In this document: in pieces, positions 17,261 to 31,636 of the stretch
Layout: every line of letters starts with the position of its first letter
How positions within the stretch are numbered: the stretch's first letter is position 1
DNA from: Geobacter sp.
Lineage (GTDB): Bacteria > Desulfobacterota > Desulfuromonadia > Geobacterales > DSM-12255
Reading direction: 5' to 3'
Assembly (NCBI GenBank): GCA_009886125.1
Contig: VFJK01000052.1
Span: 1 to 42,574 of the forward strand
DNA: 42,574 bases
The notes under the pieces: model-generated
Told to the model about the DNA's origin: nothing
The model's database searches: none
What the model saw: only the letters and a program-made list of their open reading frames with translations
Made by a program: the position numbers and the translations under genes

Positions 17261-18244
<984 letters not shown>

Positions 18245-18281: not shown

Positions 18282-18297
18282 AGCATTTGCCGTGCCA
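18282..18297 (-). promoter_or_regulatory. Sigma-54 (-24/-12) promoter of nifH
   Basis: The minus strand reads TGGCAC-GGCAA-ATGCT, a close match to TGGCAC-N5-TTGCA with the GG and GC at the required spacing. The predicted start is near 18270, about 140 bases before the nifH ATG, which leaves room for the attenuator. No TGT-N10-ACA NifA site was found upstream. Confidence 0.7.
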
Positions 18298-21035: not shown

Positions 21036-21386
21036 TCACACATTAACCAGTGTCCCCAGCCTTTTCAATACGGTCGTCAGTGCCTTTTTAGGCAAGTTGC
21101 AGGCAAACTCGGCTTTCCGGGCCTTCCAGTCGAGACTTTTCACTTGATCGCTCAGAATAACCCCGCTCACTGCCAACCCTTGCGGAATCACGACTTCAAA
21201 CGGGTAGCCCTTGATCTGGCTTGTTACCGGACAAAATATCGCAAGCCCGACTTTGCCGTTATATGCCTTGGGTGACAGCACCAGTGCCGGACGTCTGCCA
21301 GCCTGCTCGTGACCTGCCTGTGGAGTAAAAGTAAGCCAGACGATATCTCCCCGCTCCGGGACATACTGAAGCTCCGCGGCTACCAT
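21036..21386 (-). CDS. mazF: MazF-type endoribonuclease toxin
   Basis: 116 residues, the usual length. Cuts mRNA at short sequences when MazE is lost. Family motifs are PERGDIVWLTFTPQAGHEQAGRRPALVLSP (with the catalytic Arg), VTSQIKGYPFEV (with the Thr) and GVILSDQVKSLDW. The ATG at 21386 overlaps the mazE end by 7 bases, so the two are translationally coupled. The gene sits between the amidotransferase and modA inside the nif-mod region. Confidence 0.93.
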   Translation of the reverse strand: MVAAELQYVPERGDIVWLTFTPQAGHEQAGRRPALVLSPKAYNGKVGLAIFCPVTSQIKGYPFEVVIPQGLAVSGVILSDQVKSLDWKARKAEFACNLPKKALTTVLKRLGTLVNV

Positions 21387-21622
21387 ATCTCATTACCGAC
21401 CACTGCTCCGGTTGTCACTTCATGGTGGCAGTTGAAATCCGTAACACCTGCCAACAACATATCCAGAGTCGGCTCTTCAGTTTCAATCAGCGTGATAACC
21501 AGCTTTCCCTTTACCTCGGAAAGATCGACCCTGCTTCCCGGCTGAATTTTTGATTTTTTGGCATATGCGCTCGGAATCCTTAAAGCCAGGCTATGTCCCC
21601 ATTTCTGAACTTTTGCTTCCAT
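21380..21622 (-). CDS. mazE: MazE-type antitoxin (AbrB-fold)
   Basis: 80 residues. An AbrB/SpoVT-like DNA-binding N-terminus (VQKWGHSLALRIPSAYAKKSKIQPGSRVDL, residues 5-34) is followed by an acidic and flexible tail that would occupy MazF. The ATG at 21622 has GGAGG upstream. A perfect 8-base inverted repeat overlaps the promoter, as expected for autoregulation by MazE or MazEF. Confidence 0.93.
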   Translation of the reverse strand: MEAKVQKWGHSLALRIPSAYAKKSKIQPGSRVDLSEVKGKLVITLIETEEPTLDMLLAGVTDFNCHHEVTTGAVVGNEIW

Positions 21623-22507: not shown

Positions 22508-22657
22508 CTACTGCTGGCTGATGACAATAAATCTACTGTCAAACCATGGCGAAAGAAGCGGCTGCACGTCTTTCCAGGAGAGCCCTCCGCCACCGATAAC
22601 TCCCGGGCCGGAGAGCTCCCATATGTCTCCTGTCACCTCTAGCACTCTACCCTTCAT
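22508..22657 (-). CDS. Small ORF coupled to nifV (49 residues), unknown
   Basis: The ATG at 22657 overlaps the nifV stop as ATGA. The frame runs 49 codons to a TAG, beginning [17 protein letters not shown] and ending [13 protein letters not shown] do not recognise it. The ATGA coupling and plausible residue mix speak for translation; the short length and lack of a known family speak against. It may be the remaining start of a longer lost gene. Confidence 0.4.
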
Positions 22658-23793
22658 GCTGCCTTGGGAAGGGGTTCATTTCCCTTGTATATCGCCATAA
22701 GTTCCCTGTTGGTAAGATCCCGCTTGCGTCTGCATGCCATGGCCCGCGTAAGCTCCAGCATTGACTCCGCCGCTCCCCTGCCGATGGTGACCCCCATGCT
22801 GCGGTAGCGCTCGATCAGGCCGCTGGTGCCGGAGTGCTTGCCGACGACGATGCTCCGTTCAAGCCCGACTTCAGCCGGGTCGAAACCTTCATAATTATGC
22901 GGATCCTTGATGACACCATCAGCATGAAGGCCCGATTCATGGGCAAAGACCAGTTCCCCGACCACCGGCTTGGAGACAGACACCGGCCGGTGCGACGCCT
23001 TGGCAACGAAAAGCGACATCTCGCGGAAACGATGGGTATCGATGCCCGTCTCGATACCGCAGGCATGCTTCAATCCCATCACCACCTCTTCCAGTGCAGC
23101 ATTGCCGGCCCTCTCTCCCAGTCCGTTGATGGTCGTGTTGACGAATTTCGCCCCGGCGCGGATACCGGCTATCGCGTTTGCCGTTGCCATACCGAGATCG
23201 TTATGCGTATGGACTTCGATCTCCAGCTCCGGGACCGCGATTCTCAGGAAGGCTATCTTGTCATACATCGTGAACGGATCCATGATGCCGAGGGTGTCAC
23301 AGAAGCGGAAGCGATCTCCCCCCATCTCACGAGTGATCTCCATCAGCTCCACCAGAAAGGTGAGATCAGCGCGGCTGGAATCCTCCCCGCCGACTGAGAC
23401 ATAAAGATCGTGCTTCTTGGCAAAACCGAGCGCCACCTTCAACTGTTCCTTGACCGCTTCACGATCTTTTCGCAGTTTATGGACTATCATCTGATCGGAT
23501 ACGGAGAGAGAAATGTCTACAGCCTGGACACCACAGGCGATACTTGCCTCAATTTCAGGCACCAGTGCCCGGTTCCAGGTTATGAGCCGGGCATTAAGGC
23601 CGAGCTTTACCAGCGCCTTGATACCAGCCTGTTCATCCTCCCCCATAGCGGGAATACCGCATTCGATCTCCTGAATGCCTATGGAATCGAGCATCCTCGC
23701 AATTTCAATTTTCTCCCTCAGTGAGAAGACTACACCGGCGGTCTGTTCCCCATCACGCAGGGTGGTATCGTCTATAATCACTGAATCGGCCAT
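22654..23793 (-). CDS. nifV: Homocitrate synthase
   Basis: 379 residues. Condenses acetyl-CoA and 2-oxoglutarate to homocitrate, the organic ligand of FeMo-cofactor. The DRE-TIM barrel start [18 protein letters not shown], the metal-binding [13 protein letters not shown] and [11 protein letters not shown] are present, as is the HESGLHADG motif of the C-terminal region. The length fits NifV and not the longer isopropylmalate synthases. I chose the ATG at 23793 because GGAGG lies 6 bases upstream; the in-frame extension to 23883 lies in the leader. That leader has an intrinsic terminator overlapped by an AAAGGC hexaloop hairpin, as at nifH. Confidence 0.93.
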
Positions 23794-23813
23794 GTGACAC
23801 CTCCAAAAAACAG

Positions 23814-23839
23814 AAAACCCCGGAGATTTCTCTCCGGGG
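23814..23839 (-). terminator. Intrinsic terminator in the nifV leader
   Basis: The minus strand has CCCCGGAGA-GAAA-TCTCCGGGG, a perfect 9-base-pair stem with a GAAA tetraloop, then TTTT. It ends about 20 bases before the nifV start, so transcription must read through it for expression. Confidence 0.8.
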
Positions 23840-23850
23840 CGCCTTTGCCC
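23837..23850 (-). promoter_or_regulatory. AAAGGC hexaloop hairpin, candidate ANTAR antiterminator in nifV leader
   Basis: The minus strand reads GGGC-AAAGGC-GCCC: a 4-base-pair stem and the same six-base loop (A1, G4) as in the nifH leader. Its 3' arm shares three bases with the 5' arm of the terminator at 23814-23839, so the two folds exclude each other. The stem sequence differs from nifH while the loop is identical. Confidence 0.65.
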
Positions 23851-23916
23851 GGGATTGAGTATGGTTACCGTCTCATTAAGCATAAGTCATGCCCGAAGGA
23901 AATCATGCAGGTAGAA

Positions 23917-24021: not shown

Positions 24022-25731
24022 ATGTCACCGGACAAAAAGAAACTGCTCGGCGATCTGCTGCTTGAAAAGAAGGTTATCAACCTGAAGGACGCAGAGGATG
24101 CACTTGCAGAAAATGAAGAGATCGGACTGCTGCTCGGCAGCATCCTGGTGGAGCAGAAGATCATTTCCGACCTACAGCTTGAAGAGGCCCTGGAAGATCA
24201 GAAGCTTAAGGGCAACCTGAAACTGGGCGAGATCCTGGTCGCACGAGGGGTCGCCACCCAGAACGATATCATGAGAGCCTTCTCGATCCAGCTGCAGCAG
24301 CAGTTGGAAGGAAAGCCGGTCAAGCCGGCCTCTTCCCGCTTCACCCTGATGAACCGCCTGAAAGATGCCCGGATCTCGATCCGTCTCAAGCTGGCCCTCC
24401 TGATAACGCTCCTGATCATATTCATAATGTCCTGCGCCAGCATCTTCTTTTACCGGAGCCAGAAAGAGGAGTTCGTCAACCAGATGACCCGTTTCGGCTC
24501 GGCCATATCCGCCAACCTTTCTCATAACAGCTCGGTCCCGCTCCTGGAAAACGACGAAGCATCCCTGCATATTCTTCTGGAAGAGGTGTCGAAGGTACAA
24601 GACATCGACTATGTCATGGTGCTGGACAAGCAGGGCAAGATCAAAGCCCACTCCGATATCAGCAAAATAGATCTCCAATATCAGCAGATACCCAATCCCG
24701 TCCTGATTTCCAGAAGCGACACCCTGGAGATCGTCAGGTCCAGAGACGGAAAACATGAGGTGCTGGATTTCACGACCCCGGTCCGGTTCAATCAGGTGCC
24801 GCTCGGGACGATACATGTCGGCGTTTCTCTTGAAAGCCTCCGCAAGAAAATCAATCAGACGGCACTTTTCGCCATCCTCCTCACTTCGGTCCTGATCATC
24901 ACAGGCGTAGGAGTGTCGCTCTCCATCAGCACCCAGTTTTCCCGACCGATCTTCAACCTGGTGCGCGGTACGAACGAGATCAAGAACGGCAACTTTTCCT
25001 ACAGGACGCAGCGGCTCCAGAACGATGAGCTGGGGGATCTCTCCCTCGCCTTTAACGACATGGCTGAAGGCCTGCGCAAGAAAGAGGTGATTCAGGATGC
25101 ATTCGGCAAGTATGTCAATCCTGAAATTGTCGAGATGATCCTGAAAAACCCTGATGACCAGTGGTTTCAGGGGAGAAAGATCCCCCTCACGGTTATGTTC
25201 ACAGACATTCGAGGATTTACCTCTTTCTCGGAAAAGTCGACTCCGGAAGAGGTTGTCACACTTTTGAACGATCATTTCACCATGGCCACCGAGATAATCC
25301 TTCATCACGGCGGGCATGTCGACAAATTCATCGGGGATGCGGTCCTGGCTGTATTCGGCGCACTGATGGAGTATGATGACCATGCAGAGAGAGCTGTAAG
25401 GGCGGCGGTGGCACTGCAGGATGCGATGAGAGCGGAAGGGACCGTTCTCGGCGACGGCACCCTGCTCGGCATAGGTATCGGGATCAATACCGGCGAGGCT
25501 ATCGCAGGGAATATCGGTTCCCAGAAAAGGATGGAGTTCACGGTCATAGGTGACACCGTGAATCTGGCCTCACGTCTTACCGGGGTAGCTAAAGCCGGCG
25601 AAGTGATAATCAGCCGCAGCGTCTATGAAAAGGTGGCGAAGATGGTAACCGCTGAGAAACTAGAACCGGTGCCAGTCAAAGGAAAGAGCGAACCTGTTGA
25701 TATCTACAGGGTCGATGCGGTCAAAGGGTAG
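24022..25731 (+). CDS. Membrane class III adenylate cyclase with MshEN-like N-terminus
   Basis: 569 residues. Residues 1-95 look like the MshEN/T2SSE N-terminal fold (LLGDLLLEKKVI..., LLGSILVEQKIIS, LGEILVARGVATQNDI), which in some proteins binds cyclic di-GMP. Then come a membrane helix (about 120-148), an extracytoplasmic sensor region, a second helix (about 283-305), HAMP, and a cyclase domain (about 385-560). Catalytic residues are present: metal-binding D395 (MFTDIRGFT) and D439 (DKFIGDAVLAVFG), adenine-selecting K435, and Asn and Arg in TVNLASRL. It should make cAMP in the cytoplasm. Its stop lies 9 bases from that of the convergent TPR lipoprotein. Confidence 0.9.
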   Translation: MSPDKKKLLGDLLLEKKVINLKDAEDALAENEEIGLLLGSILVEQKIISDLQLEEALEDQKLKGNLKLGEILVARGVATQNDIMRAFSIQLQQQLEGKPVKPASSRFTLMNRLKDARISIRLKLALLITLLIIFIMSCASIFFYRSQKEEFVNQMTRFGSAISANLSHNSSVPLLENDEASLHILLEEVSKVQDIDYVMVLDKQGKIKAHSDISKIDLQYQQIPNPVLISRSDTLEIVRSRDGKHEVLDFTTPVRFNQVPLGTIHVGVSLESLRKKINQTALFAILLTSVLIITGVGVSLSISTQFSRPIFNLVRGTNEIKNGNFSYRTQRLQNDELGDLSLAFNDMAEGLRKKEVIQDAFGKYVNPEIVEMILKNPDDQWFQGRKIPLTVMFTDIRGFTSFSEKSTPEEVVTLLNDHFTMATEIILHHGGHVDKFIGDAVLAVFGALMEYDDHAERAVRAAVALQDAMRAEGTVLGDGTLLGIGIGINTGEAIAGNIGSQKRMEFTVIGDTVNLASRLTGVAKAGEVIISRSVYEKVAKMVTAEKLEPVPVKGKSEPVDIYRVDAVKG

Positions 25732-29717: not shown

Positions 29718-31004
29718 TTAGCGTCTCACCGGATTGCGCTTCTCGAACTTTTTCAGAATATAATAGGTGATCCAGCCGACAAGAATCAATCCAATGGTGA
29801 AGATGGCGTAAGAAACTGGCCAGGGGATATCCTTGGTCATCATCGAGAATTCCGACATGCCGCCTATCCCGGCAATCACATTGAGCGGCATGAAGATTAC
29901 GCTCAGGACCGTCAGACGGTAAATGACACGGTTCTGGTTGATGTTGATAAAACCGACTGTGGAGTCCATCAAAAAGTTGATCTTGTCAAACAAAAAAGCG
30001 GTATGACCGTCCAGTGATTCGATGTCCCGCATTATCTGCTGGGCATCCTCTAGCTGGGCAGACGAAAGCAGTTTCCTCCGGATCAGGAAGGCAAGTGCCC
30101 GGCGGGTATCCAGCACGTTTCTGCGGATACGGCCGTTCAGGTCCTCCTCTTCCGCTATATCGGCAAGGGTCTTCGCCGCATCTTCATCGCTCATCCTTTC
30201 ACTGAGAACCTTTTTCCCCACATTCCCGAGCGCGGTATAGCTCTCCTCCAGCGCATCTGCGGAATACTCGACATCAGCAGCGTAAAGGTCGAGAAGCATG
30301 TCCATACCATCCGAGACATATCCTGCCTGGATGCGCGCACGAAGACGCTGCAAACGGAAGACCGGCAGCTCTTCCTCACGCACTGAAAAAAGAATGTCCC
30401 TGAAGAGAATAAATGCTACCGGTACGTTACGGGATTCCCCTTCCTTGTCGAGCAGAAAATCGGAATGGAGATGTATTTCACCCTCGTTCTCAACATAAAA
30501 TCGGGCGCTGGATTCAATGTCGGTAAGCTCTTCCGGATCAGGAAATTCCAGGCCGAAATACTGTCCGATCTTGCGCCGGTCAGCCTTGGTGGCGCCAACC
30601 AGGTCAACCCAGATAGGGCTGATCCCTTCCAGGTCTTCCACAGACTCGATCGTAGTCTGGGACAACCGCCCCTGCGCCAGCTCAAAGGCATTCACAACAC
30701 AGGAAGAGCCAAGGTAGCTGCTGCGGCTAGCAAGGATGTCACGGGTGGTATCGGAGACTTCGTCCAGCAGGTCATCAACCCGGCTTTCGTCAATCTCTCC
30801 CCAGACAAGCAAAAGATCATCCGGTGAGAGCGCTTCGAGAATTTCCGCAATCTCTGCCGAATCGAGCTTGCTAAGATATGAACGCAGCTCGATCAGATAC
30901 CTTTTATGCGGCGTGCTTTCCACCGGGTCATGGGGCTGCCTCGTTACTGTGCCTTCCTCATGCCGGTGCTTTGCAAGCAGATCCTGAAAAATATGCAGTG
31001 ACAT
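29718..31004 (-). CDS. CorA-type magnesium channel with MgtE_N-like domain
   Basis: 428 residues. The C-terminal half is CorA-like: a long helical funnel region and two membrane helices at the end (about 355-378 and 395-418). The pore signature is altered: instead of GMN the first helix ends in GIGGMSEF (G382-M383-S384). Residues about 35-105 (YLSKLDSAEIAEILEALSPDDLLLVWGEI...) resemble the MgtE_N domain, a Mg2+-sensing domain of another transporter family. The ATG at 31004 has GGGAG 7 bases upstream. An M-box riboswitch with promoter and terminator lies 420-620 bases upstream in the same direction, which supports a Mg2+ role. Confidence 0.85.
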   Translation of the reverse strand: MSLHIFQDLLAKHRHEEGTVTRQPHDPVESTPHKRYLIELRSYLSKLDSAEIAEILEALSPDDLLLVWGEIDESRVDDLLDEVSDTTRDILASRSSYLGSSCVVNAFELAQGRLSQTTIESVEDLEGISPIWVDLVGATKADRRKIGQYFGLEFPDPEELTDIESSARFYVENEGEIHLHSDFLLDKEGESRNVPVAFILFRDILFSVREEELPVFRLQRLRARIQAGYVSDGMDMLLDLYAADVEYSADALEESYTALGNVGKKVLSERMSDEDAAKTLADIAEEEDLNGRIRRNVLDTRRALAFLIRRKLLSSAQLEDAQQIMRDIESLDGHTAFLFDKINFLMDSTVGFININQNRVIYRLTVLSVIFMPLNVIAGIGGMSEFSMMTKDIPWPVSYAIFTIGLILVGWITYYILKKFEKRNPVRR

Positions 31005-31450: not shown

Positions 31451-31474
31451 CAAACAGGCAATTCCGGTTCCCCT

Positions 31475-31627
31475 CTCGTGGATTTTCGGCAGTGCACAAC
31501 GTAGGCCCGTAAGGGCCAGCTACCTTGGGTAAAGCCTTAAGCCGACAATACCTGGTCTACCCGTTGGCGTCTTTCGACATTTCCGGGCAGTAGCCTCTGT
31601 TTGTGCAAACGCCTCATGCTAACGAGG
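31475..31627 (-). ncRNA. M-box (ykoK) Mg2+ riboswitch
   Basis: On the minus strand the conserved core GGCTACTGCCCGGAAATGTC continues into GAAAGACGCCAACGGGTAGA. This is the M-box signature (ACUGCC, GAAAxGUC, AGACGCCAA, GGGU). GTTAGCATGAGGC lies 5' of it and GGCTTAAGGC and TGTGCACTGCCGAAAA follow. CTCGT and ACGAG at the two ends form the closing stem P1. M-box RNAs bind Mg2+ and usually shut off Mg2+ transporter genes when Mg2+ is plentiful. A terminator follows at once and a CorA-type gene lies downstream. Confidence 0.9.
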
Positions 31628-31636
31628 AATGTACGT

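Follow-up and report, generated by a model that had tools for sequence, protein, structure and literature searches.

We propose, at a probability of about 85%, that the nifV leader of this Geobacter sp. is a transcription attenuator read through a single hexaloop by the cell's only ANTAR response regulator, a GnfR-type protein, with transcription beginning at predicted starts. The leader lies in a stretch of 42,574 nucleotides, analyzed at its full length and called the window here. The original prediction, made from the letters of the window, missed the unusual feature of this leader, which is the lack of an upstream partner for its hexaloop. In the current ANTAR model, the terminator is outrun only when two hexaloops are present. 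Dozens of single-loop nif leaders, usually in genomes that have one ANTAR protein and dual sites too, set one loop against two for the same protein in the same cell and make this rule testable. Through these leaders, the genes for nitrogenase structure, FeMo-cofactor synthesis, and ammonium uptake would also share one regulon at the RNA level, recognizable by a clean sequence signature. The leaders suggest, moreover, that a published orphan riboswitch candidate could be explained by a protein.

Organization of the nifV leader and its predicted reader

Read 5' to 3' on the minus strand, the leader runs ...GGGCATGACTTATGCTTAATGAGACGGTAACCATACTCAATCCC GGGC AAAGGC GCCCCGGAGA GAAA TCTCCGGGG TTTTCTGTTTTTT GGAGG TGTCAC ATG. 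Its sigma54-type promoter element, GGCATGACTTATGC (23880..23893, minus strand), has the GG-N10-GC spacing of a -24 GG and a -12 GC and is found in related nif leaders as well; from the usual distance between -12 and +1, transcription is predicted to start at about 23868, leaving about 20 nt ahead of the hexaloop hairpin, P2. This hairpin (23837..23850), a putative ANTAR site and antiterminator supported by sequence and fold, is built of GGGC (23850-23847), the loop AAAGGC (23846-23841), and GCCC (23840-23837). It shares three bases, CCC (23839-23837), with an intrinsic terminator (23818..23839) made of CCCCGGAGA (23839-23831), GAAA (23830-23827), and TCTCCGGGG (23826-23818) and followed by the T-rich tract TTTTCTGTTTTTT (23805..23817). 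Thus, the GGGC-AAAGGC-GCCC hairpin overlapping the 5' arm of a 9-bp GAAA-loop terminator, as originally described, was confirmed in every part on the minus strand. A ribosome-binding site, GGAGG (23800..23804), leads into nifV itself (22654..23793, ATG at 23793), a homocitrate synthase gene by its match to NCBIfam TIGR02660 (522.5 bits, cut-off 462.9).

These features are those of an ANTAR target RNA: the loop carries A1 and G4 as in known targets (PMC3369931), the stem has 4 bp where at least 3 bp are expected, and P2 both overlaps and excludes an intrinsic terminator. Folding gave -6.1 kcal/mol for P2 alone and -20.1 kcal/mol for the terminator including a flanking G-T pair, and in step-wise folding P2 formed first and was displaced once the 3' arm of the terminator had been transcribed. 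Bases just 5' of P2 are able to pair with the remaining terminator 5' arm (CTC/GAG, TCC/GGA), stabilizing the antiterminator, and this lengthening has a z score of -2.75 in the present leader. As a general replacement for the missing upstream hairpin, P1, the same lengthening was rejected, with a class mean z of -0.07; it holds for this nifV leader only. The gene upstream of nifV (24022-25731, plus strand) is divergent, and therefore the terminator belongs to nifV alone. The protein encoded there combines nucleotide signals in an unusual way, having an MshE-type c-di-GMP-binding motif together with an sCache sensor and with HAMP and adenylate/guanylate cyclase domains.

Exactly one ANTAR protein is encoded in the genome (PF03861, 79.4 bits). 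It has 198 amino acids, with a receiver and an ANTAR domain, and its gene is situated directly upstream of the glnK-amtB leader. The protein matches EutV (6wsh, E 6.6e-19) and Rv1626 (1s8n, E 3e-31), and 7 of the 11 EutV RNA contacts named in PMC8934654 are identical in it (R142, K143, K147, K149, E160, M172, and R175), the others being changed from Y164 to Phe, N173 to Asp, R168 to Gln, and R177 to Ser. Since the leader has the ANTAR recognition loop (A1, G4) and the one ANTAR protein is encoded beside the glnK-amtB leader, antitermination of the ANTAR/GnfR kind is the most likely mode of control.

GnfR of Geobacter, the subject of Ueki & Lovley 2010 (cited in PMC8164766), is reportedly an ANTAR response regulator that acts by antitermination on a subset of nif genes with terminators behind activator-dependent promoters. 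That work is not known to describe a hexaloop code or a distinction between single and dual architectures. The nifV leader would share with the GnfR system the type of ANTAR regulator, and it comes from the same bacterial group. As expected of a GnfR regulon, the genome has a receiver-ANTAR protein linked to ammonium genes and a sigma54-type promoter with a leader terminator in four leaders. Its single ANTAR protein is probably the orthologue of GnfR, which we take to be GSU2822 in Geobacter. ANTAR antitermination of nif genes is thus already known; the single-hexaloop class is what we regard as new, and part of that class may be contained in Ueki & Lovley 2010.

In the proposed mechanism, a sigma54 activator would start transcription at the sigma54 promoter, forming a first gate, and RNA polymerase would by default halt at the GAAA terminator of the nifV leader. 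Active GnfR, which by analogy with EutV would be phosphorylated and dimeric, would then grip the hexaloop hairpin; with the 3' arm of P2 held, the base of the terminator 5' arm would be withheld and polymerase would read into nifV, passing the second gate. We infer GnfR binding, the signal of GnfR, the start site, and the sufficiency of one hexaloop. Transcription of nifH, of a NifX-like operon, and of glnK-amtB would pass through an equivalent switch. Across the order, the nifV, nifE, nifB, and most NifX-like leaders would present one hexaloop near the transcript 5' end, with glnK and most nifH leaders being dual, and at single-loop leaders GnfR would act on P2 alone, dispensing with the 'recruitment hairpin' that the EutV model in PMC8934654 includes.

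An ANTAR protein is present in 129 of the 141 genomes of the order, usually as the only one, and in 167 of the 394 genomes of the phylum sample. In two related near-complete genomes of one genus (G007 and G008), profile and relaxed protein searches for an ANTAR gene returned only receiver-domain matches, and a close nifV was looked for and not found. Both genomes keep leaders with hexaloop and terminator ahead of nifE and of the glnK operon (L105, L106, L341 at 4180 on the plus strand, and L342 on the minus strand). Their retention counts against the GnfR reading; either the two assemblies share a gap or another protein reads the loop.

The hexaloop-terminator module in the window and the genome

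The nifH leader repeats the loop and the overlapping terminator, as the original prediction stated. On the minus strand, a sigma54-type promoter element, GGCACGGCAAATGC (18283..18296), is followed by the hairpin TGGC [AAAGGC] GCCA (18228-18215) and a terminator, AAAGGCGCC...GGCGCCTTT (18188..18224, score 20.2), that overlaps the hexaloop. The nifH open reading frame (17261..18151, minus strand) matches NCBIfam TIGR01287 (469.7 bits) from residue 10 onward; translation probably begins about 8 codons inside this frame, after an AGGAG. Identical loops on differing stems had been taken to mean that a protein reads the loop. This claim holds up in that the stem varies, A1 and G4 are kept, and a single ANTAR protein is available, and it is weakened at nifH, where the loop bases double as part of the terminator arm. 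The window also contains, between nifV and nifH and just upstream of modABC, a mazEF-like toxin-antitoxin pair (21036-21622, minus strand), and, upstream of a CorA-type transporter gene (29718-31004, minus strand), an M-box magnesium riboswitch (31464-31633, minus strand; 139.7 bits).

The bare sequence AAAGGC occurs 28 times in the window against 27.5 expected, a chance level that makes it uninformative, and 4-bp stems carrying an ANNGNN loop are frequent too (28 in the window). The hexaloop with an overlapping terminator, in contrast, occurs exactly twice, at nifV and nifH, and never in 10 shuffled windows. A search of the whole genome (3.57 Mb) for GGCANNGNCGCC gave 94 matches compared with 51 in the control. 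Among the 89 scorable sites, four have an overlapping terminator with a score of at least 20, the next best scoring 4.6, a count that covers GGCANNGNCGCC-type stems, so that leaders with other stems could be missed. A relaxed pattern for other stems in the same genome, sigma54 + N11-41 + NNNCANNGNNGNNN, gave 47 places versus 17 in the control; inspected by eye rather than scored singly, only the known nifV P2 and a P1 hairpin at glnK stood out.

A sigma54-type GG-N10-GC element precedes each of the four leaders, and all four stand before nitrogen genes. Besides nifV and nifH, they are C175:10195, ahead of a NifX-like/ferredoxin/NifX-like operon, and C20:30098, ahead of an unassigned gene followed by glnK (P-II) and amtB. 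The possibility that the motif might be equally frequent outside nif leaders is thus answered in the negative, since hexaloop, terminator, and sigma54-type element were found together in this genome only at nif and ammonium leaders. The predicted regulon joining structural and cofactor genes was supported for nifHDK and the FeMo-cofactor genes (nifV, nifE, nifB, and NifX-like), and it extends to glnK-amtB ammonium control.

One hexaloop or two

The ANTAR targets known so far each carry two hexaloops, P1 and P2, and two hairpins are part of their definition (PMC3369931). No second hexaloop with G4 and a stem of at least 4 bp lies between the predicted +1 of nifV and P2. We therefore do not class this leader as a classical dual-hexaloop site and propose that it works like one. 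Within the same genome, the glnK leader is dual, with GCAC[AACGGT]GTGC placed 12-13 nt before P2, whereas the nifV and NifX-like operon leaders have no P1, and the P1 of nifH is decayed at best.

Across related leaders with a promoter element, P2, and a terminator, we scored upstream hexaloops with a six-base loop, G4, and a stem of at least 5 bp. Such a hexaloop was present in 12 of 14 glnK leaders, 8 of 13 nifH leaders, and 1 of 9 NifX-like leaders, and absent under the same definition from all 15 nifV, 16 nifE, and 11 nifB leaders; shuffled leaders gave at most 0.6 upstream hexaloops per class. These counts are descriptive because related sequences are not independent; the contrast between classes is still sharp. 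Genes were placed in classes from short protein signatures, and some of the leaders were included because they fit the search patterns. Several upstream hexaloops of nifH (L135, L139, and others) have G instead of A at loop position 1 and keep G4, for example, GAATAC[GCTGCA]GTATTC. In 14 of the 78 leaders, including nifB and some nifV leaders, P2 follows the -12 GC by 16-21 nt, leaving about 4-10 nt of transcript and hence no room for P1 unless transcription starts elsewhere. One protein thus appears to act on targets of two architectures.

An unlikely alternative is that nifV is a classical dual site, with a P1 that has degenerated or is located farther upstream, on a transcript longer than predicted. 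A 3-bp hexaloop, GGT[AACCAT]ACT, does sit just after the predicted start and 8 nt before P2, the same genome has a dual site at glnK, and P1 loops are somewhat variable across the order. However, the AACCAT loop lacks G4, which in the EutV system is stacked against the protein (PMC8934654), and the nifV leaders as a class lack a 5-bp hexaloop with G4; for nifB and some nifV leaders, the short distance from the -12 GC argues against any P1 unless the start is elsewhere.

The reading of the nifV leader as a single-hexaloop attenuator has evidence from other systems on both sides. EutV antitermination needs both hexaloops (PMC3369931, PMC8934654), and NasR binds a lone P2 weakly, at ~12 uM (PMC7496416); by analogy, both results would count against sufficiency of one hexaloop. 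The minimal ANTAR binding unit is one hexaloop, and natural single-hexaloop sites were foreseen by the authors of that work (Walshe 2022, PMC8934654). They expected single sites where the transcribing polymerase sets no time limit, whereas the sites described here are at transcription terminators. A nitrogenase regulon under hexaloop ANTAR antitermination has also been predicted in Pelobacter carbinolicus (Ramesh 2012, PMC3369931). Like that regulon and the dual-hexaloop eut, nas, and ami leaders (PMC3369931), the present leaders have an A1/G4 hexaloop, a C-G closing pair, and overlap of P2 with a terminator, and they share with the regulon a link to nitrogen genes; unlike them, the nifV, nifE, nifB, and most NifX-like leaders have no P1.

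Conservation in the order and the published nifV motif

Directly upstream of nifV, six relatives of the same family (L006, L008-L012) have GGC-AANGRC-GCC with a terminator behind a promoter element, and three (L004, L005, and L007) do not. The fixed AAAGGC loop of the original prediction is true of nifV and nifH and gives way to AANGRC among related leaders, where the R and the final C are partly imposed by the search pattern. The outer P2 stem varies among these leaders, and A1 and G4 of the loop are kept. A fourth P2 base pair is complementary in 54 of 104 leaders versus 27.5 expected (background sites, 27 of 87 versus 26.0). The excess is real over the whole set of leaders, but as proof of covariation it was rejected, because most of the signal reflects how the gene classes differ; it gives moderate support only.

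A short-spacing pattern was found in 116 of the 141 genomes of the order, some matches being chance ones in coding sequence (~24 control hits), and a long-spacing pattern was found in 118 of the 141, with 2 control hits. In the phylum sample, 9 of 10 genomes of the order have the short-spacing pattern compared with 6 of 384 others. The module thus recurs across this bacterial order and is rare elsewhere in the phylum. Among the carriers identified by name in a scan of public genomes are Geobacter sp. AOG1, Geobacter argillaceus, Geotalea sp. SG265, Geomobilimonas luticola, and Pelotalea chapellei.

Conservation of this kind could also arise if the element served only to terminate transcription constitutively or to insulate, with the hexaloop as a by-product of the terminator arm, which we consider very improbable. 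At nifH and nifE the last loop bases do lie in the terminator arm, so that the terminator partly explains conservation where loop and arm coincide, and the two genomes with no ANTAR gene detected still keep their leaders. However, there is nothing to insulate at nifV, whose upstream gene is divergent; the P2 5' arm (GGC) and A1A2 are kept although the nifV terminator does not need them; and in one genus (g12), the hexaloop before nifV persists while the terminator is gone.

The nifV leaders of genus g12 (L120, L123, L124, L126, and L324-L335) have the promoter element and the hexaloop, and in most of them a downstream fold covers the ribosome site, suggesting a probable translational version of the switch. 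A 'nifV motif', WRC-61-5, has been published from Geobacter as a structure upstream of nifV with the Shine-Dalgarno sequence inside it and a presumed ligand (PMC11109978). The leader in the window is likewise a structured RNA placed directly ahead of nifV, also in Geobacter, but its GGAGG lies behind the terminator and outside the structure, and by this comparison of descriptions the g12 leaders fit WRC-61-5 better. Set beside those leaders by description, WRC-61-5 is likely to be the g12 nifV element and would be read by the ANTAR protein.

That the window leader is instead a small-molecule riboswitch is the least probable reading: in a 2024 survey, four Geobacter sequences did show this structure, with covariation, ahead of nifV, and it was listed as a weak candidate (PMC11109978), but the ~20 nt before P2 are too little space for an aptamer, the hexaloop is common to leaders of unlike genes (nifH, nifE, nifB, and glnK), the loop is an ANTAR loop in a genome with an ANTAR gene, and Rfam 15 has no match at the nifV leader or in ten related loci, though WRC-61-5 may simply be absent from Rfam. 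Extending the single-hexaloop attenuator reading, we give even odds to the joint proposal that the order uses natural single-hexaloop ANTAR antiterminators at sigma54 transcript starts beside dual ones for the same protein, the second hexaloop serving for tuning and being dispensable, and that the orphan 'nifV motif' represents this protein-read switch in a form that acts on translation.

Similar arrangements were seen at a few more distant loci. In Azospirillum sp. TSO22-1 (L236), a sigma54-like element is followed after 18 nt by GGCAAAGGCGCC, just before a nifH-like signature and with no terminator detected, an arrangement that could be due to chance. In Acinetobacter and similar loci (L185, L190, L200, L229, and L287), a sigma54-type element accompanies two GGC[AANGRC]GCC-type hexaloops that are 26-28 nt apart, compared with linkers of 5-12 nt in the E. 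faecalis eut leaders.
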